A stretch of 49,846 nt of DNA from Methanofollis fontis (GTDB lineage: Archaea > Halobacteriota > Methanomicrobia > Methanomicrobiales > Methanofollaceae). Both the position numbers and the translations under genes were made by a program. The notes under the pieces are model-generated. The model had not been told where the DNA came from. It saw nothing but the letters and a program-made list of their open reading frames with translations, and did no database searches. Location of the stretch: contig NZ_PGCL01000008.1 in assembly GCF_004297185.1 (NCBI RefSeq), forward strand, positions 1 to 49,846. Reading direction: 5' to 3'. Shown in pieces: positions 5,816 through 49,846 of this stretch (position 1 is the stretch's first letter; the number at the start of each line of letters is the position of its first letter).

Positions 5816-5992
5816 TCGGCGGCGGTGCCGTCTCATCCCCTCTCTTTTTTGTCGTGATCCGGTTTCGGCACCCCCTCCCCCGTGCGAATGATAGGGATCT
5901 TGAAATATGCAGAAATATAACAGGAAAGTGTGCCGATACCTGAATAGTGGCACGATGCCTCTTATCTGGTCCTTCAAGATGTGGTGAATGCG

Positions 5993-7468
5993 ATGAATCG
6001 AAAAATGCCCGGAATTCATGCTCCCAGAGATGCCGTACAGAGATTGGGCCGGCACGCCTGCTCTGTGGCGATGCTGTTTCTCCTGATCTGTCTCCTCGCC
6101 GCCCCTGCCGCTGCCGCCCTCACCACCACGGAGGTGACGATCACAAAACTCGCCTCCGACGATGAGACGGTCCTCTGCAGGGCGACGGTGGACTGGGTCT
6201 GGATGATGGAGAACCTGCCCGTTCTCGGAGACGGTCAGACGGTCTATTATACGCAGGGCCCGGTCTTTGAAGGGGCATGGGAGGATACACATCCAGGCGA
6301 GACCTACGACCCCTGGAATCCTGACGAGGACGTGAACATCCTCTATAAGGACCACGGCGAGTTCATGGGCACCGATGTGGCAGCGCTCCTCGACCTTGTC
6401 GGCGGGGCAGACCCGGCGGACCTGGTGGCGTTCAGGGCGGCGGACGGTCTGACGAAGCGCTGGCCCGCGGCGTACATCGACACTCCCGACCCCGGGCAGG
6501 GCCCCTTCGGGCTCATCTGGTATCACGGGGATGATCTCGGGTACGTGAACGAGAGTTTTGATCACGGCATGCGGCTGTATTTTTTCGGGGAGACGACGAA
6601 TGCGGCCGGAATGCATGTCTGGGGGAACTGGGACATGCACGAGTCCTGGAATGAGACCTTCTGGTACTACTACAACGGCCACTACCCCTCGGCCAGCGGC
6701 ACCTCCGTGATGTATGTCAGGAACATCACGATCCACAGTGCCATCTCGCCATATGCGCCGGTGGCAGGGTTCTCCGCCGATCCCCTCAGCGGCGATGCGC
6801 CGCTTTCGGTGCAGTTCACCGACACCTCGATGAATGCGCCGACCGCCTGGTGGTGGAAGTTCGGGGACGGCGCCACCTCTGACGAGCAGCACCCGGTCCA
6901 CGTCTATCGGGCCGAAGGGAACTATACGGTGACGCTCGCCGTCTCGAATGCGTGGGGGAACGATTCCCTGACGCAGGAAGATTGTATCCGTGTGGACCGC
7001 CCGCCCATGACCGTCAACTTCAGCGCCGCACCCCTGGAGGGTTTCGTCCCCCTGAGTGTCCAATTCACCGGTCTGACGGAGGGTTCACCCTCGTCATGGA
7101 ACTGGTCGTTCGGGGACGGCGCCACCTCCGGAGAACCAAATCCGGTGCATCCCTATACCGTCCCCGGCACCTATGACGTCTCCCTCTCGGTGGACGGCGG
7201 TGCCGGGTCCTGTGTGAAACCGGAGTATATCCGTGTCCTCCCCTGTCTCCCCGGCGATGCGAATGGCGACGGTGCGGTGAATCAGGCCGACACCCTCCGC
7301 GTGCTGAAGGAAGTCGTCGGTCTTGTGGCGAAACCGGAGGCCGGAACCGAACGCTTCCATGCCACCGACGTGCACCGGAACGGCGTCATCGAGACCGGCG
7401 ACGCCCTCTATATTGCGCAGTGCAACGTGGGGCTGAGGGACCGCTGGTTTGAGGTGGTGGAGGGATGA
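5993..7468 (+). CDS. Secreted protein with two PKD domains and a C-terminal type I dockerin
   Basis: A 491-residue protein with a signal peptide (hydrophobic stretch about 25-42). Residues 43-250 form a module I know only as common in methanogen secreted proteins (VLGDGQTVYYT, KDHGEFMGTDV, GNWDMHESW); its function is unknown. Two PKD domains follow (about 255-335 and 338-417), each with the FGDG hallmark. The C-terminus is a complete dockerin with two calcium-loop helices, DANGDGAVNQAD and DVHRNGVIETGD, which in other systems binds cohesin domains. There is no membrane anchor, so surface retention would have to come through the dockerin. The ATG at 5993 is chosen over an upstream GTG at 5981 because GGTGA at 5983-5987 lies five bases before it. 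Confidence 0.85.
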   Translation: MNRKMPGIHAPRDAVQRLGRHACSVAMLFLLICLLAAPAAAALTTTEVTITKLASDDETVLCRATVDWVWMMENLPVLGDGQTVYYTQGPVFEGAWEDTHPGETYDPWNPDEDVNILYKDHGEFMGTDVAALLDLVGGADPADLVAFRAADGLTKRWPAAYIDTPDPGQGPFGLIWYHGDDLGYVNESFDHGMRLYFFGETTNAAGMHVWGNWDMHESWNETFWYYYNGHYPSASGTSVMYVRNITIHSAISPYAPVAGFSADPLSGDAPLSVQFTDTSMNAPTAWWWKFGDGATSDEQHPVHVYRAEGNYTVTLAVSNAWGNDSLTQEDCIRVDRPPMTVNFSAAPLEGFVPLSVQFTGLTEGSPSSWNWSFGDGATSGEPNPVHPYTVPGTYDVSLSVDGGAGSCVKPEYIRVLPCLPGDANGDGAVNQADTLRVLKEVVGLVAKPEAGTERFHATDVHRNGVIETGDALYIAQCNVGLRDRWFEVVEG

Positions 7469-40850: not shown

Positions 40851-43800
40851 TCATTCTTCATTTCTTCTTCTGAAGTACAGGACGCCGGCGACAATCAGAA
40901 CGATGATGATCACCGCCCCGAACCAGAGCGACATCCCCTCTGATCTGTCTGGCGATGTCCCGGTGATCTCCGGTACCACGGTCAGATATGGCTGTTCGTC
41001 TCCGAAGAGTGCGTAGGTGCTGAAATGATCGATATGGACCGTGATTGTCCTCTGACTCTCATCGATCTCTCCGGCGATGCGCTCCCATTCGTTGCTTGAG
41101 GTGTTGAGCCACCCGACCTCTGCACTGGGTCCGAATTTCTTCCATTCGTCCTCTGAAAGAATGAATGTGAGGGCGATGTCCGGTGAGAAGGTCGTTCCAT
41201 CAGGGGTACACTCATAGGCGGAGATTGCCTGCGGGTGCTCAACCGCCCCGATTCCAGCGGCAGCCGGGAGGTCGGTTGTGGGCACGGCGACGATACGGAT
41301 CGCGTCAACCGGCCTGCCGGACGCATCGCGTGCCGTCACTCCGACCTCGATGGAGAGGCAGGCGGTATGGTCATCCGCCCACACAATCACCGGTCTCTCC
41401 ACCTCGCCGCCGGTCCCGAGCGGCAGGTCTGCCGTCGTGATAAACTCCACTCCCTCCACAGATGTTGAGGCGGGGTGGGTCACCGTCGGTTCCGGCGTAG
41501 GTGCAGGTGTGGTCTGGACCGGTGTGGGTGTCGGCGTTATCGTCGGCGTTGGTGTCGGCATATCGCTGTCATCGTTATCGTTCGGATACGAGACAGTGAT
41601 GAACCGCTGTTTTTCGGCAGTAATGGTGCCATATGCGTTCGTGGCCGTCAGGGAGACCGTGTATGGGCCCGAACCCTGGTAGATATGCACCGGGTTCTGT
41701 TCGGTTGAGGTCTGCCTGTCGCCGAAGTCCCAGAGCCATGAGGTCGGCGTGCCGGTGGTCCGGTCGGTGAACCTGACCATCAGCGGGGCAGAGCCGGAGA
41801 GCGGTGTTGCGGTGAAATCGACCGTCATCAGGTTGGTGACGGTGATGTAGTCCATCTCTTCTGCCGTGTCCTCTCCTGCCGGGTTCGTGATCGAGAGAGC
41901 GACGTCATAGGTGCCGACGGCCGTGTAGGTGTGGACCGGGTTCTGCTGGGTCGAGGTCTGCCCGTCGCCGAAGTCCCAGTGCCAGGTCTCGGGATGGCCG
42001 TCCGAGTAGTCATAGAACTGCACCATGAGCGGTGCGGACCCTGCGAGCGGGGTGGCGGAGAAGCGTGCCACCGGATCTTCGTAGACGGTGTACGCCACAA
42101 GCGCCTTGTAGGAGAAACCATCCGGCGAGAGGGCGGTGAAGGTGTAGATGCCGTCGGCATAGGTGTAGGTCGTCTCGAGGTGGGTGACCGTACCGTCGGC
42201 GGCGAGGCTGAGGATGGTGAAACTGTCCGCCCCGCCCCATGCATCCACATAGGCGGCGGAGGCGCTCATCACGATGATCGCATCGGAGACCGTGATGTTC
42301 CCGAACTTGGATTTGTTGATCTCCATCGTATAGGCCACTTCTTCGAGTTCCGCGCCTTCAGATTCGCTGACGGCGAGCTGGAAGAGTCGGCCCATCGTCT
42401 CGTTCACGGCACCACGGGTGATCGTGACATTGAGGCGGGTGTCCGGGTCGGTCAGGCCGGAGAGGGCGCCGGAGATGTTTGCACTGATGCCGGTCGTGAC
42501 CGCGCCCACGTCGCCGCTGAGGTCAACGGCATTCGTGATATTGCCGATCGAGGCACCGGTGCACTCACCGGTCCATTCCGAGGAACGGTTCTCCAGGCCT
42601 GCGGTGCGGATGGTGATGTCGATGCCGGGGTTGCGGACACAGATGGTGGTGTTGTCGTCGGTGATGGTGGCGTTCCGGTTTGCGGTGAGGTTGATGGCGA
42701 CCTCCTGCGTGGCATCGTCGAAGGTCATGTTCGAAACCGTGACGGGCCGGGTGTCATTGAGGGCGGTCGGCACCGGTGTGATGGTGATGTAACCGGGCCG
42801 CATGTCGTCGAACTGGTAGGTGGCATTCTCTCGAGTCCACTGTGGATTGATAAGCCGGAGCTGGCGTTCACAGGGCAGACCGTTCGAGTGCACCTGCAGG
42901 TCGATGAGGGAGACGACGTCCTCGCTCGTGATGGCGTCCGGGGCGGCTGCACTGACCTGGAGCCAGCCGTTTGCGTTCCTGATATCGGAGGAGACGTTGA
43001 GGCCCGGCATGGTGGCATTGGCCCGGATATCGGTCACCGTCATGACCGTGCGGTTGTACTCCATGATGAAGGAGAGGTCGGTGACCTCATTGAGCCCTGC
43101 TGCCGTGACGGTCAGGTATTTCGACGATTCGACCGGCAGTGCCCCCGAGGGTGCGTCCACGGCGGTTCGAGCCTCGACGGCGATGGCGCCGTTCTCACGG
43201 ATGACCGGCGATTCGTGGTCGGCGGTGTGGGCGGTGGCGTCCGTGATGGCGAGAGTGGCGGTCTGCCGGAGGCCTTCGATTGCGGGTGCGGACCGGAAGG
43301 TGATGTTTGCAACCGCAGCAGTGCCTTCGGCGGTGATGCCGGAGCCGTCGGCGATGGCAATGGAGACACGGCCGTTGGTGTTGTCAATCGTGGCATCGAA
43401 GACCGCCGCCTCGGTGAGGGGGGTCGGAGCGGCGCTGTCCACGGTGATGAGTGCCGGGTCATAGCCGATGGTGAAGGCGAGGGCGGTCGTGGCATCGAGT
43501 CCTTCGGCGGTCACCGGGAATTCGCCGCTCTCGTTTGCCGGGAGTCTGCCGGTGGGAGCGGTGAGCGTAATGGCAGGTGTGCTGCTCACGACGATGTAGT
43601 CTTCCCTGGTGAGGGTGTCCTGTCCATAGCCGTTTGCAACGGTGAGGGAGACGGTGTAGGTCCCCTCCTCTGTGTAGGTGTGGAGCGGGTTCCTCTCATC
43701 AGAGACATTTCCGTCACCAAATGTCCAGTTCCAGGTCTCAGGGCCGTCGGTAGAGGTGTCGGTGAAGGTCACCTGCAACGGTGCGTCACCCGAGAGGGGT

Positions 43801-46800
43801 GTGGCGGTGAACGCGGCCACCGGTGCGGTTCCGACCGGGGTGAGGGTGAAAGAGACCTCTGCTGTCTCGTCTGTGGCGACCTCTATGGATCGGGCGGATG
43901 ACGGGTTGTAGCCGGCTTTCTCGACGGTGAGCGTGTGACTGCCGACCGGGATGTCAGGGAGCGTGGTGTTCGTGAGGGCAGTGGTGTTGCAGCCGTCCAG
44001 CCAGATCCATGCTTCGTCTGGTGAGGAGGTGACATGGATCGAGCCGCTCTCCTGTGTGAGGGTAAAGAAGACCTCACTCTCCTCATCCGGCACGACCGTC
44101 ACGCTCCGGTTTGTCGGGCGCAGGTAACCGGGTTTCTCGACGGTGACCGTGTGAGTGCCGGCGGCGATACCGGTGAGGGTGGTGTTCGTGAGCTGACCGG
44201 TGTTCTCGCCGTCCAGCCAGATGGTGGCGTTCGCCGGACTGGAACCGACGCGGATGGCACCGGGGTGTGATATGAGGGTGAAGTCCACCGTTTCAATGGT
44301 GCCGACGGTTACGGTCGCAATCCTGCTCTGGGCATCGTATCCCTCCTTTTCGACGGTGACATTGTAGGTTCCGACGGGCTGATCAGCGAAGGTGAAGTTT
44401 GTGATTTCACCGGTTTCGGTGCCGTTCAGTGAGATCCGGGCACCGGCTGGTGTGGAGTTCACCTGCAGTGTGCCTGTCTGGCCAACAAGGGTGAAGTCGA
44501 CGAGTTCGGTTTCGTCCCTAGAGAGGGTTACAATCCTGCTCTGGGCGTCGTATCCCTCCTTTTCGACGGTGACATTGTAGGTTCCGACGGGCTGATCAGC
44601 GAAGGTGAAGTTCGTGCTTTCACCGGTTTCAGTGCCGTTCAGTGATATCCGGGCACCGGCTGGTGTGGAGTTCACCTGCAGTGTGCCCGTCTGGCCCACA
44701 AGGGTGAATGCGACGAGTTCGGTCTCGTCCTTCGAGAGGGTTACAATCCTGCTCTGGGCGTCGTATCCCTCCTTTTCGACGGTGACGTTGTAGGTTCCGA
44801 CGGGCTGATCAGCGAAGGTGAAGTTCGTGCTTTCACCGGTTTCAGTGCCGTTCAGTGATATCCTGGCACCTGCTGGTGTGGAGTTCACCTGCAGTGTGCC
44901 CGTCTGGCCCACAAGGGTGAATGCGACGAGTTCGGTCTCGTCCTTCGAGAGGGTTACAATCCTGCTCTGGGCGTCGTATCCCTCCTTTTCGACGGTGACG
45001 TTGTAGGTTCCGACGGGCTGATCAGCGAAGGTGAAGTTCGTGCTTTCACCGGTTTCAGTGCCGTTCAGTGATATCCTGGCACCTGCTGGTGTGGAGTTCA
45101 CCTGCAGTGTGCCCGTCTGGCCCACAAGGGTGAATGCGACGAGTTCGGTCTCGTCCTTCGAGAGGGTTACAATCCTGCTCTGGGCGTCGTATCCCTCCTT
45201 TTCGACGGTGACGTTGTAGGCTCCGACGGGCTGATCAGCGAAGGTGAAGTTCGTGATTTCGCCGGTTTCAGTGCCGTTCAGTGATATCCTGGCACCTGCT
45301 GGTGTGGAGTTCACCTGCAGTGTGCCCGTCTGGCCAACAAGGGTGAATGCGACGAGTTCGGTTTCGTCCTTCGAGAGGGTTACAATCCTGCTCTGGGCGT
45401 CGTATCCCTCCTTTTCGACGGTGACGTTGTAGGTCCCGACCGGTTTGTCTGCCAGGGTGGCGTTCGTGAGGTCTCCCGTATCAGTGCCGTTCAGGTAGAC
45501 CGCTGCTCCTGCCGGGGTGGAGTTGATCTGGAGTGTCCCGAGCTGCTGGACGAGCGTAAAGGAGACATCCTCGGTCTCGTCCTTCGAGAGGGTGACGATC
45601 TCTGTCGCCGGATCGTATCCATTCAACTCGACGGTGACATTGTAGATCCCGACCGGTTTGTCTTCGAGGGTGGCGTTCGTGAGGTCGCCGGTTGCGGTGC
45701 CGTTCAGGTATACCGCTGCCCCCGAGGGAGTGGAGTTGATCTGCAATGTCCCGAGCTGCTGGACGAGGGTAAAGGAGACATCCTCGGTCTCGTCCTTCGT
45801 GAGGGTGACGACCTCTGTCGCCGGGTCGTATCCGTCCAGTTCAACCGTGACGTTGTAGGTCCCGACCGGTTTGTCTTCGAGGGTAGCGTTCGTGAGGTCT
45901 CCCGTGGCCGTTCCGTTCAGATATACCGCCGCTCCGGAGGGAGTAGAGTTGATCTGCAACGTCCCGAGCTGCTGCACGAGCGTAAAGGAGACATCCTCGG
46001 TCTCGTCCTTGGTGAGAGTGACGATCTCCGTTGCCGGATCGTATCCGTCCAGTTCAACCGTGACGTTGTAGGTCCCGACGGGTTTGTCTGCGAGGGTAGC
46101 GTTCGTGAGGTCGCCGGTTGCGGTGCCGTTCAGGTAAACCGCCGCTCCCGCCGGTGTGGAGTTGATCTGCAATGTCCCGAGCTGCTGCACGAGCGTAAAG
46201 GAGACCTCCTCGGTCTCGTCCTTGGTGAGAGTGACGACCTCTGTCGCCGGATCGTATCCGTCCAGCTCCACGGTGACATTGTAGGTCCCGACCGGTTTGT
46301 CTGCGAGGGTGGCGTTTGTGAGGTCTCCGGTTGCGGTTCCATTCAGGTAAACCGCTGCTCCCACCGGCGTGGAGTTGATCTGCAACGTCCCGAGCTGCTG
46401 GACGAGCGTAAAGGAGACATCCTCGGTCTCGTCCTTGGTGAGAGTGACGATCTCCGTTGCCGGGTCATACCCGTTCAGTTCAACCGTCACATTGTAGGTC
46501 CCGACCGGTTTGTCTTCGAGGGTGGCATTCGTGAGGTCTCCGGTTGCGGTGCCGTTCAGGTAAACCGCCGCTCCCGAGGGCGTGGAGTTGATCTGCAGTG
46601 TCCCGAGCTGCTGCACCAGGGTGAAACTCACGTCCTCGGTCTCGTCCTTGGTGAGGGTGACGACCTCTGTCGCCGGATCGTATCCGTCCTTCAGGACGGT
46701 GACATTGTAGGTCCCGACCGGTTTGTCTTCGAGGGTTGCGTTCGTGAGGTCCCCGGTTGCGGTGCCGTTCAGGTAGACCGCCGCTCCTGCCGGAGTGGAG

Positions 46801-49800
46801 TTGATCTGCAATGTTCCGAGCTGCTGCACGAGGGTGAATGCGACCTCCTCGGTCTCGTCCTTGGAGAGGGTGACGATCTCCGTTGCCGGGTCGTATCCGT
46901 CCAGTTCAACCGTGACGTTGTAGGTCCCGACCGGTTTGTCTTCGAGGGTAGCGTTCGTGAGGTCTCCCGTGGCCGTTCCGTTCAGATATACCGCCGCTCC
47001 GGAGGGAGTAGAGTTGATCTGCAACGTCCCGAGCTGCTGGACGAGCGTAAAGGAGACCTCCTCGGTCTCGTCCTTGGAGAGGGTGACGATCTCCGTTGCC
47101 GGGTCGTATCCGTCCAGTTCAACCGTTACATTGTAGGTGCCGACCGGTTTGTCTGCGAGGGTGGCATTCGTGAGGTCGCCTGTAGCAGTGCCGTTCAGGT
47201 AGACCGCCGCTCCGGAGGGAGTGGAGTTGATCTGCAATATCCCGAGCTGCTGCACCAGGGTGAAACTCACGTCCTCGGTCTCGTCCTTGGAGAGGGTGAC
47301 GATCTCGGTCGCCGGGTCGTATCCCTCCTTTTCGACGGTGACGTTGTAGGCTCCGACCGGTTTGTCTGCGAAGGTGAAGTTTGTGATTTCGCCGGTTTCA
47401 GTGCCGTTCAGTGAGATCCGGGCGCCTGTTGGTGTGGAGTTCACCTGCAGTGTGCCTGTCTGGCCAACAAGGGTGAATGCGACGAGTTCGGTCTCGTCCT
47501 TCGAGAGGGTTACAATCCTGCTCTGGGCGTCGTAACCCTCCTTTTCGACGGTGACGTTGTAGGTCCCGACTGGTTTGTCTGCCAGGGTGACGTTCGTGAG
47601 GTCTCCCGTGGCCGTTCCGTTCAGATAGACGCTGGCTCCTGCCGGAGTGGAGTTGATCTGGAGTGTCCCGAGCTGCTGGACGAGCGTAAAGGAGACATCC
47701 TCGGTTTCGTCTTTCGTGAGGGTGACAATCTCTGTTGCCGGATCGTATCCCACCAGTTCAACGGTGACATTGTAGGTCCCGACCGGTTTGTCTGCCAGGG
47801 TTGCGTTCGTGAGGTCGCCCGTAACAGTGCCATTGAGATATACCGCTGCCCCCGAGGGAGTGGAGTTGATCTGCAATGTCCCGAGCTGCTGGACGAGCGT
47901 AAAGGAGACCTCTTCGGTCTCGTCCTTGGAGAGGGTGACGATCTCCGTTGCCGGATCGTATCCCTCCAGTTCAACGGTGACATTATACGTCCCGACCGGT
48001 TTGTCTGTGAGGGTGGCGTTCGTGAGGTCCCCGGTTGCGGTTCCGTTGAGATAGACCGCCGCTCCGGAGGGCGTGGAGTTGATCTGCAGTGTCCCGAGCT
48101 GCTGCACGAGGGTGAATGCAACCTCCTCGGTTTCGTCCTTGGAGAGGGTGACGACTTCCGTTGCCGGGTCGTATCCGTCCAGTTCAACCGTCACATTGTA
48201 GGTCCCGACCGGTTTGTCTGCGAGGGTGACGTTCGTGAGGTCACCGGTTGCAGTTCCGTTGAGATATACCGCCGCTCCGGAGGGAGTGGAGTTGATCTGC
48301 AATATCCCGAGCTGCTGCACCAGGGTGAAACTCACGTCCTCGGTCTCGTCCTTGGAGAGGGTGACGACCTCTGTCGCCGGATCGTATCCATTCAACTCGA
48401 CGGTGACATTGTAGGTCCCGACCGGTTTGTCTGCGAGGGTGGCGTTCGTGAGGTCTCCCGTATCAGTGCCATTGAGATATACCGCTGCCCCCGAGGGAGT
48501 GGAGTTGATCTGCAATGTTCCGAGCTGCTGGACGAGCGTAAAGGAGACTTCCTCGGTCTCGTCCTTGGAGAGGGTGACGATCTCGGTTGCCGGGTCGTAT
48601 CCCTCCAGTTCAACGGTGACGTTGTAGGTCCCGACCGGTTTGTCTGCGAGGGTGACGTTCGTGAGGTCGCCGGTCGCGGTGCCGTTGAGGTAGACCGCCG
48701 CTCCCCAGGGAGTGGAGTTGATCTGCAATATCCCGAGCTGCTGCACGAGGGTAAAGGAGACATCCTCGGTCTCGTCCTTGGAGAGGGTGACGATCTCTGT
48801 CGCCGGGTCGTATCCGTCCTTCAGGACGGTGACATTATAGGTCCCTACGGGTTTGTCTGCGAGGGTGGCATTCGTGAGGTCACCGGTTGCGGTTCCGTTG
48901 AGATAGACCGCCGCTCCGGAGGGCGTGGAGTTGATCTGCAGTGTCCCGAGCTGCTGCACGAGGGTGAATGCAACCTCCTCGGTTTCGTCCTTGGAGAGGG
49001 TGACAATCTCGGTTGCCGGGTCGTATCCGTCCAGTTCAACCGTCACATTGTAGGTCCCGACCGGTTTGTCTGCGAGGGTGACGTTCGTGAGGTCACCGGT
49101 TGCGGTGCCATTCAGGTAGACACTGGCTCCCGCCGGTGTGGAGTTGATCTGCAATGTCCCGAGCTGCTGCACCAGGGTGAAACTCACGTCCTCGGTCTCG
49201 TCCTTGGAGAGGGTGACGATTTCCGTTGCCGGGTCGTATCCGTCCAGTTCAACCGTGACATTGTAGGTCCCGACCGGTTTGTCTGTGAGGGTAGCGTTCG
49301 TGAGGTCTCCGGTTGCGGTGCCGTTCAGGTAGACCGCCGCTCCGGAAGGCACAGAGTTCACCTGCAGCGTTCCCACCTGCTGCATAAGCGTGAAACTCAC
49401 ATCTTCTGTCTCATCCTTTGTGAGGGTGACGATCTCCGTTGCCGGATCGTATCCGTCCAGTTCAACCGTCACATTGTAGGTCCCGACCGGTTTGTCTGTG
49501 AGGGTAGCGTTCGTGAGGTCTCCGGTTGCGGTGCCGTTCAGGTAGACCGCCGCTCCGGAAGGCACAGAGTTCACCTGCAGCGTTCCCACCTGCTGCATAA
49601 GCGTGAAACTCACATCTTCTGTCTCATCCTTTGTGAGGGTGACGATCTCCGTTGCCGGATCGTATCCGTCCAGTTCAACCGTCACATTGTAGGTCCCGAC
49701 CGGTTTGTCTGCGAGGGTTGCGTTCGTGAGGTCACCGGTTGCGGTGCCGTTCAGGTATACCGCCGCTCCTGCCGGCGTGGAGTTGATCTGCAATGTTCCG

Positions 49801-49846
49801 AGCTGCTGGACGAGGGTGAACGCAACCTCCTCGGTCTCGTCCTTGG
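40851..49846 (-). CDS. Giant PEGA-repeat surface protein with PKD and cohesin-like domains (5' end beyond window)
   Basis: More than 2990 codons are visible and the N-terminus lies beyond the right edge. In order: at least 28 PEGA domains (43830-49846); a PKD domain (about 43580-43829); two cohesin-like domains (about 43170-43575 and 42760-43165; the first has LAFTIGYDPALITVDSA and VANITFRS); a PGF-pre-PGF-like region with SPDGFSYKALVAY (about 42080-42750); two more PKD domains (WHWDFGDG, WLWDFGD; 41590-42075); a Thr/Pro linker (TPTPTITPTPTP); a beta-rich domain; and a C-terminal membrane helix with RRRNEE. The inference is a long extended stalk anchored in the membrane and carrying binding modules near the cell, heavily N-glycosylated. 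Its role could be adhesion, sheath or scaffold. Confidence 0.9.
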   Translation of the reverse strand, partial: KDETEEVAFTLVQQLGTLQINSTPAGAAVYLNGTATGDLTNATLADKPVGTYNVTVELDGYDPATEIVTLTKDETEDVSFTLMQQVGTLQVNSVPSGAAVYLNGTATGDLTNATLTDKPVGTYNVTVELDGYDPATEIVTLTKDETEDVSFTLMQQVGTLQVNSVPSGAAVYLNGTATGDLTNATLTDKPVGTYNVTVELDGYDPATEIVTLSKDETEDVSFTLVQQLGTLQINSTPAGASVYLNGTATGDLTNVTLADKPVGTYNVTVELDGYDPATEIVTLSKDETEEVAFTLVQQLGTLQINSTPSGAAVYLNGTATGDLTNATLADKPVGTYNVTVLKDGYDPATEIVTLSKDETEDVSFTLVQQLGILQINSTPWGAAVYLNGTATGDLTNVTLADKPVGTYNVTVELEGYDPATEIVTLSKDETEEVSFTLVQQLGTLQINSTPSGAAVYLNGTDTGDLTNATLADKPVGTYNVTVELNGYDPATEVVTLSKDETEDVSFTLVQQLGILQINSTPSGAAVYLNGTATGDLTNVTLADKPVGTYNVTVELDGYDPATEVVTLSKDETEEVAFTLVQQLGTLQINSTPSGAAVYLNGTATGDLTNATLTDKPVGTYNVTVELEGYDPATEIVTLSKDETEEVSFTLVQQLGTLQINSTPSGAAVYLNGTVTGDLTNATLADKPVGTYNVTVELVGYDPATEIVTLTKDETEDVSFTLVQQLGTLQINSTPAGASVYLNGTATGDLTNVTLADKPVGTYNVTVEKEGYDAQSRIVTLSKDETELVAFTLVGQTGTLQVNSTPTGARISLNGTETGEITNFTFADKPVGAYNVTVEKEGYDPATEIVTLSKDETEDVSFTLVQQLGILQINSTPSGAAVYLNGTATGDLTNATLADKPVGTYNVTVELDGYDPATEIVTLSKDETEEVSFTLVQQLGTLQINSTPSGAAVYLNGTATGDLTNATLEDKPVGTYNVTVELDGYDPATEIVTLSKDETEEVAFTLVQQLGTLQINSTPAGAAVYLNGTATGDLTNATLEDKPVGTYNVTVLKDGYDPATEVVTLTKDETEDVSFTLVQQLGTLQINSTPSGAAVYLNGTATGDLTNATLEDKPVGTYNVTVELNGYDPATEIVTLTKDETEDVSFTLVQQLGTLQINSTPVGAAVYLNGTATGDLTNATLADKPVGTYNVTVELDGYDPATEVVTLTKDETEEVSFTLVQQLGTLQINSTPAGAAVYLNGTATGDLTNATLADKPVGTYNVTVELDGYDPATEIVTLTKDETEDVSFTLVQQLGTLQINSTPSGAAVYLNGTATGDLTNATLEDKPVGTYNVTVELDGYDPATEVVTLTKDETEDVSFTLVQQLGTLQINSTPSGAAVYLNGTATGDLTNATLEDKPVGIYNVTVELNGYDPATEIVTLSKDETEDVSFTLVQQLGTLQINSTPAGAAVYLNGTDTGDLTNATLADKPVGTYNVTVEKEGYDAQSRIVTLSKDETELVAFTLVGQTGTLQVNSTPAGARISLNGTETGEITNFTFADQPVGAYNVTVEKEGYDAQSRIVTLSKDETELVAFTLVGQTGTLQVNSTPAGARISLNGTETGESTNFTFADQPVGTYNVTVEKEGYDAQSRIVTLSKDETELVAFTLVGQTGTLQVNSTPAGARISLNGTETGESTNFTFADQPVGTYNVTVEKEGYDAQSRIVTLSKDETELVAFTLVGQTGTLQVNSTPAGARISLNGTETGESTNFTFADQPVGTYNVTVEKEGYDAQSRIVTLSRDETELVDFTLVGQTGTLQVNSTPAGARISLNGTETGEITNFTFADQPVGTYNVTVEKEGYDAQSRIATVTVGTIETVDFTLISHPGAIRVGSSPANATIWLDGENTGQLTNTTLTGIAAGTHTVTVEKPGYLRPTNRSVTVVPDEESEVFFTLTQESGSIHVTSSPDEAWIWLDGCNTTALTNTTLPDIPVGSHTLTVEKAGYNPSSARSIEVATDETAEVSFTLTPVGTAPVAAFTATPLSGDAPLQVTFTDTSTDGPETWNWTFGDGNVSDERNPLHTYTEEGTYTVSLTVANGYGQDTLTREDYIVVSSTPAITLTAPTGRLPANESGEFPVTAEGLDATTALAFTIGYDPALITVDSAAPTPLTEAAVFDATIDNTNGRVSIAIADGSGITAEGTAAVANITFRSAPAIEGLRQTATLAITDATAHTADHESPVIRENGAIAVEARTAVDAPSGALPVESSKYLTVTAAGLNEVTDLSFIMEYNRTVMTVTDIRANATMPGLNVSSDIRNANGWLQVSAAAPDAITSEDVVSLIDLQVHSNGLPCERQLRLINPQWTRENATYQFDDMRPGYITITPVPTALNDTRPVTVSNMTFDDATQEVAINLTANRNATITDDNTTICVRNPGIDITIRTAGLENRSSEWTGECTGASIGNITNAVDLSGDVGAVTTGISANISGALSGLTDPDTRLNVTITRGAVNETMGRLFQLAVSESEGAELEEVAYTMEINKSKFGNITVSDAIIVMSASAAYVDAWGGADSFTILSLAADGTVTHLETTYTYADGIYTFTALSPDGFSYKALVAYTVYEDPVARFSATPLAGSAPLMVQFYDYSDGHPETWHWDFGDGQTSTQQNPVHTYTAVGTYDVALSITNPAGEDTAEEMDYITVTNLMTVDFTATPLSGSAPLMVRFTDRTTGTPTSWLWDFGDRQTSTEQNPVHIYQGSGPYTVSLTATNAYGTITAEKQRFITVSYPNDNDDSDMPTPTPTITPTPTPVQTTPAPTPEPTVTHPASTSVEGVEFITTADLPLGTGGEVERPVIVWADDHTACLSIEVGVTARDASGRPVDAIRIVAVPTTDLPAAAGIGAVEHPQAISAYECTPDGTTFSPDIALTFILSEDEWKKFGPSAEVGWLNTSSNEWERIAGEIDESQRTITVHIDHFSTYALFGDEQPYLTVVPEITGTSPDRSEGMSLWFGAVIIIVLIVAGVLYFRRRNEE
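43830..49846 (-). repeat. Tandem PEGA array, 28 units, 26 on an exact 213-bp period
   Basis: From 49846 down to 44259 every unit is 71 codons (213 bp); two diverged units (72 and 71 codons) follow to 43830. Units fall into an A type (GAAVYLNGTATGDLTN, GYDPATEIVTL) and a B type (GARISLNGTETGE, GYDAQSRIVTL, LVGQTG). Neighbouring units at 49345-49770 and at 44820-45245 are identical or nearly so at the DNA level, so expansion is recent. Each unit carries about four N-X-S/T sequons. Confidence 0.95.

Follow-up and report, generated by a model that had tools for sequence, protein, structure and literature searches.

The end of one contig of the archaeon Methanofollis fontis raises the question of what kind of protein is built on a very long run of PEGA domains, where its missing beginning lies, and what such a molecule could do at the cell surface. 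The window analysed here, 49,846 nucleotides long, is the complete contig NZ_PGCL01000008.1 (C8) of the assembly GCF_004297185.1, and its end falls within the PEGA array. The open frame of 2,997 aa (40851..49844, minus strand) leaves the window at the 5′ side. The region 40851..49846 (minus; 2,997 codons and a stop) is thus the C-terminal third of a 5′-open gene, which continues onto contigs C12 and C6, so that these coordinates hold only about 38% of it; the whole protein is about 2.7 times as long as the part seen in the window.

The Pfam scan found 28 PEGA domains in the C8 part (PF08308; 1,426 bits, E=0, gathering cut-off 20.8 bits). They follow one another as 71-aa (213-bp) units at 43836..49799 (minus), in each of which as many as four N-glycosylation sequons occur, and Tandem Repeats Finder gave a period of 213 in 25.9 copies with 85% matches at 44320-49844. 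One more, partial unit stands at the contig end (49800..49846, minus), within a 127-bp sequence common to the end of C12. The preliminary description of this DNA had claimed at least 28 PEGA domains in an extreme surface stalk, 26 of them on an exact period. The 28 domains were confirmed, and the figure of 26 proved right or slightly low, with 27 starts spaced by exactly 71 aa from aa 16 to aa 1862 and the next step being 72 aa. Matches of the array to SEF14, Head_fiber, TcaA and other Pfam families were discarded as repeat-driven artefacts, no stretch passing alone.

Downstream of the array, all on the minus strand, come a PKD domain (43590..43832), a cohesin above the Pfam cut-off (PF00963, E=1.3e-9; 43173..43586), a second cohesin-like module below it (E=0.0019; 42756..43169), a 222-aa domain without a Pfam match (42090..42755), two further PKD domains (41838..42077 and 41592..41834, assigned by Pfam like the first), a Thr/Pro-rich linker (41475..41591), a membrane-proximal domain without a Pfam match (40989..41474), and a transmembrane helix followed by an RRR tail (40875..40928, assigned by eye). 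The PKD/cohesin-like modules and the membrane anchor described previously are therefore present, as three PKD domains, one clear cohesin and a hydrophobic helix with RRR. Against NCBIfam, the giant protein gave only weak, below-cut-off overlaps (LIC10124, anammox S-layer) from its PEGA/PKD modules. Relatives of the 222-aa domain, at about 25-42% identity, are part of large proteins in each of the genus's 12 genomes; the AlphaFold2 model of this domain (pLDDT 37.5) gave no usable fold prediction.

The remainder of the gene was found on two other contigs. C12 (3,030 bp) carries a PEGA frame open at both ends, with 14 PEGAs, and the C6 part comprises 3,857 aa from the first ATG, with a signal peptide-like start, seven GLUG blocks and 17 PEGAs. 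The first 127 bp are identical in C6 and C12 and absent elsewhere on C6, C12 and C8. The last 127 bp of the window (sequence Y, 49720..49846) are also the last 127 bp of C12; this assembly-graph junction recurs nowhere else on the three contigs, and in the searchable genome Y occurs at full identity only at these two contig ends. The 127-bp shared ends look like the trace of a de Bruijn assembler with k=127 at a collapsed repeat, and the simplest path would be C6-R-C12-R-C8, where R = 419+213n bp. Contig C15 has 632 bp (419 + 213), the size predicted at n=1; the agreement is one of length, with about 5% coincidence expected among ten such contigs.

Gene order points the same way. The ribonucleotide reductase (RNR) gene flanking the giant gene on C8 (38003..40174, plus strand; not part of the giant protein) is the synteny anchor that places C8 beside C6, for in eight congeners RNR and the radical-SAM/B12 gene of the C6 side point towards each other across 0.2-9 kb. 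In some of these congeners homologues of C6 genes lie in between, namely Macro genes in congeners G001, G003 and G006 and a subtilase-dockerin gene in G011. The giant gene is absent from all eight slots; as judged from this gene content, the slot varies in what it holds and received the giant gene by insertion. Taken together, the assembly graph and the conserved gene order in congeners allow us to conclude that C6, C12 and C8 belong to one gene. If C12 is traversed once, it encodes at least 7,975 aa with at least 61 PEGAs (814 kDa of known sequence), or 8,117 aa and 63 PEGAs if C15 is the missing link, again on a single C12 pass. The complete N-terminus, for which a search had been proposed, is thereby located on C6, and the suspicion that the assembled copy number may be wrong was well founded, since the contig breaks inside the array.

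The N-terminal part on C6 begins with a hydrophobic, signal-like segment, after which come the seven GLUG blocks (Pfam Glug, 476 bits), most of them with at least one PEGA behind. One such block has a match in 3n6z, a putative IgA1 protease, and we take the GLUG repeats of the giant protein to be of the beta-helix-forming kind; we know of no proven ligand for such repeats. By sequence, the PEGA units matched nothing in the PDB. A three-unit AlphaFold2 model is all-beta (pLDDT 94.9, pTM 0.72), and in a fold search of the PDB it was best matched by the TIE protein of B. anthracis, the BcpA pilin and the Sulfolobus S-layer protein SlaB.

How alike are the units? The preliminary description called them near-identical, which was overstated: adjacent C8 units share 87% DNA identity on average (range 73-100%), and the sole adjacent pair of fully identical 213-bp units lies at 44688..45113 (minus), within a 329-bp exact direct repeat. 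At the protein level, the 71-aa units are 84.9% identical in the mean of all pairs and 90.6% identical when adjacent. The local homogenisation that it also proposed was borne out: identity drops with distance in C8, being 0.87 between neighbours (lag 1) and about 0.78 by lag 9, and none of the 5000 permutations reached the mean identity of adjacent units. Over all pairs, mean pS is 0.45 and pN/pS is 0.22. The large silent divergence together with the low pN/pS indicates an old array under purifying selection, with a few recent duplications. For 43 of the 45 units of M. fontis the nearest unit is in its own genome, thus indicating that expansion and homogenisation were lineage-specific.

At E<1e-40, the 358-aa C-terminal module was found in 8 of the 199 genomes of the order Methanomicrobiales: M. 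fontis, five genomes of genus g18 and two of genus g2, and no congener. The g18 genomes include Methanogenium marinum, Methanogenium sp. CSMAG_280 and M. cariaci, and the module is 56-85% identical among the species with homologues. The homologue of G012 is an unbroken frame of 9,331 aa in a 3.16-Mb single-contig genome, with 81 PEGA and 53 GLUG repeats and the same head-stalk-anchor order as in M. fontis. In G042, a frame of 4,330 aa that is preceded by a frame break holds 42 PEGAs; G078 has 19 in 3,610 aa, G037 has 13 in 3,701 aa, and the M. marinum homologues have 15 and 11. In a search for PEGA across 393 genomes of the phylum, the matches listed in frames above 3,000 aa were all from G000, G012, G037 and G042. 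The relatives' genes hold 11 to 71 exact 71-aa units. As read from these frames, array size clearly differs between species, and the claim that unit number is labile stands for the comparison between species (13 to 81 PEGAs).

Two of the homologous loci deserve a further remark. In the single-contig genome G042, the frame changes at L063 15431-15497, where frames of 2,520 and 4,330 aa overlap; this is a candidate sequencing error, pseudogene or switch. In M. marinum, two adjacent GLUG+PEGA giants of 3,393 and 1,859 aa stand in tandem (L042 2552-19327). Stops or frame changes disrupt the second M. marinum paralogue and the M. cariaci copy (loci L045 and L044), and on the strength of these broken copies the gene may have been lost repeatedly. 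It has also likely been transferred between families: the surface module of M. fontis is 85% identical to that of G042, while the flanking RNR shares just 76% with its G042 counterpart and 83-89% with those of congeners, the reverse of what vertical descent would give.

The distinctive feature of these units is their sequons. The known 7,863 aa hold 324 N-X-S/T sequons against 112 expected from shuffles (z=25), and sequons stand at unit positions 6, 17, 26 and 38 in 37, 39, 39 and 39 of 39 units, respectively. The 17 PEGA units of other proteins of this genome have four sequons in total, or 0.24 per unit vs. about four here. No support was found for the suggestion that the PEGAs bind polymers of the envelope; what sets them apart is the four conserved sequons per unit. 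The first of these is NSTP, with proline next to it; proline after a sequon usually weakens glycosylation. Units of relatives have 2.5 to 5.6 sequons, about four in most, at partly different positions; for instance, G042 units have lost position 17 and gained 11, and those of G037 have sequons at 6, 26, 40, 48 and 59. That the number is kept while positions turn over suggests selection for glycan density in the stalk. An STT3/AglB oligosaccharyltransferase is encoded in the genome (PF02516, C1:556955-558031, E=1.6e-20).

We consider it fairly probable that the giant gene encodes a membrane-anchored, N-glycosylated, periscope-like stalk that displays a beta-helix head and varies in length through repeat recombination. 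The signal peptide and the seven GLUG blocks separated by PEGAs would make up the distal head, and the run of at least 49 PEGA domains would form a rigid beta-sandwich stalk, fixed at the membrane by the PKD, cohesin, cohesin-like, PKD and PKD modules and the transmembrane helix. N-glycans, probably present on as many as four sites of each unit, would keep the stalk stiff, soluble and protease-resistant. Recombination between repeats would alter the unit number, such that projection length differs between lineages, as in a periscope-like adhesin. In function, the protein would thus most resemble a periscope-type fibrillar adhesin, with an N-glycan cover probable and a dock at its base possible. 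A bolder version of this reading seems to us possible but rather doubtful, namely that PEGA here has become a dedicated N-glycan carrier in which selection maintains about four glycans per 71-aa unit, making a length-tunable, glycan-sheathed periscope rod that has a basal cohesin dock and moves between families by gene transfer; the exchange of position 17 for 11 in Methanogenium would exemplify a turnover of sites at a steady count.

The likeness to bacterial Periscope Proteins (PMC8201768; PMC9704523) lies in the predicted surface anchoring, an N-terminal head, a stalk of folded domains, labile array length and homogenised repeats. These proteins are defined by tandem repeats of more than 50 residues with at least 80% sequence identity (Whelan et al. 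2021, PMC8201768), and the giant protein has 71-aa units at 84.9% mean pairwise identity. Its surface attachment is indicated, from sequence only, by the signal-peptide-like N-terminus on C6 and the C-terminal transmembrane helix; as for strain variation, the range of 13-81 PEGAs is one between species. The Periscope Proteins are built of SHIRT, Rib, G5 and similar domains, in contrast to PEGA, a stalk of about 50 units and four sequons per unit in the giant protein, and neither of the two papers mentions archaea or PEGA. The adhesin-like proteins of methanogens offer another comparison. They have right-handed beta-helix N-terminal repeats, to which the GLUG blocks matching 3n6z may correspond, but their stalks consist of archaeal Big domains with roughly 15-34% identity rather than PEGA units with about 85%. 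The Pfam scan of the giant protein found no Big family, and by its stalk sequence it is not in the Big-domain class; the paper on these adhesins mentions neither PEGA nor GLUG. The PEGA surface proteins of Methanosarcina and others (PMC2447325; PF08308) belong to the same family, with surface location assumed, but usually have few copies, as compared to at least 61 here. No paper on PEGA/GLUG giant proteins was found.

The cohesin invites a different reading, in which the protein is a membrane-anchored scaffoldin whose main job is the cohesin-dockerin docking of secreted proteases and other proteins with a dockerin, the PEGA/GLUG part only tethering it to particles or neighbours. As in scaffoldin systems, an anchored protein with a cohesin, here followed by the second, cohesin-like module, is accompanied by dockerins on secreted proteins of the same genome. 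Six dockerin ORFs are above the cut-off, with the duplicated Ca-loop motif visible, and among their products are two subtilases, one beta-propeller protein and one protein that also has a cohesin; in the four M. fontis cases followed to the end, the dockerin is C-terminal with no transmembrane segment after it. One of the dockerin ORFs lies in the window (5981-7468, plus) and encodes a secreted PKD-PKD-dockerin protein. Another, with a subtilase domain, four PKDs and a C-terminal dockerin (L009 12884-15859, C6), lies two places upstream of the giant gene and shares its strand, with a Macro-domain gene between the two. Unlike in scaffoldins, only one cohesin is clear and PEGA and GLUG dominate, cohesins being one or two of more than 65 modules, and the docking is a prediction. 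Moreover, the genome has another cohesin protein (with a sub-cut-off dockerin match in a whole-protein scan), the ORF list notes no dockerin neighbour at the G012 homologue, and G011 carries the subtilase-dockerin homologue in the same slot without the giant gene, so that its nearness to the giant gene may be due to chance. We therefore regard a scaffoldin as unlikely. In the periscope-like stalk, the membrane-proximal cohesin could still keep secreted proteins that bear a dockerin, the nearby subtilase among them, close to the cell.

Less probable still is a mucin-like shield of the halomucin type, in which hundreds of N-glycans would form a hydrated coat with no specific ligand. The 324 sequons of the known parts, a pI of 4.05 and the retention of about four sequons per unit under positional turnover agree with such a glycan brush; but a coat needs neither well-folded beta domains nor a large GLUG head, and the single transmembrane anchor and the exact 71-aa spacing better fit a rod. 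Halomucin of Haloquadratum walsbyi, as described in the excerpts available (PMC4330952, PMC11573180), is likewise a giant archaeal surface protein of more than 7,000 aa with patchy presence, and a GLUG-containing gene was aligned to it in one genome; it differs in being a proposed desiccation coat, and these excerpts report no PEGA array.

That the protein is a SlaB-like stalk, crossing the S-layer or holding it up, is very improbable. SlaB was among the fold-search matches and the stalk bears N-glycosylation sequons, which are typical of S-layer proteins, but an S-layer component should be conserved, whereas the C-terminal module is patchy in the order, missing from congeners, and attached to proteins whose length differs several-fold. 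An assembly artefact or a functionless selfish repeat expansion, which the contig end inside the array and the broken copies in relatives (M. cariaci, the M. marinum paralogue, the G042 frame break) might have suggested, hardly deserves credence, given the purifying selection between units, and the worry about an artefact voiced in the preliminary description is answered by the unbroken 9,331-aa homologue on a single contig and by the synteny that joins the C6, C12 and C8 contigs.

If the periscope-like reading is true, the periscope-protein idea, defined in bacteria, extends to archaea, with a gene and a product among the largest in this domain. Very long arrays of similar domains are expected to misfold, and these proteins are a natural system in which to ask whether N-glycans take the place of other stabilising features; the sequon turnover between lineages makes this idea directly testable. 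The locus is also a warning that short-read archaeal assemblies tend to split such genes.

Two minor observations concern the flanking genes. On C6, a 437-aa protein with four PEGAs and no sequons adjoins the radical-SAM gene (L009 17228-18541), and 436-aa frames with PEGA matches lie beside the radical-SAM gene in G004 and G011, which suggests a conserved neighbour. The RNR of M. fontis, G001 and G005 lacks an intein-like insertion of about 360 aa that is present at about residue 254 in G002, G003, G004, G006, G008, G010 and G011 (e.g., L091).
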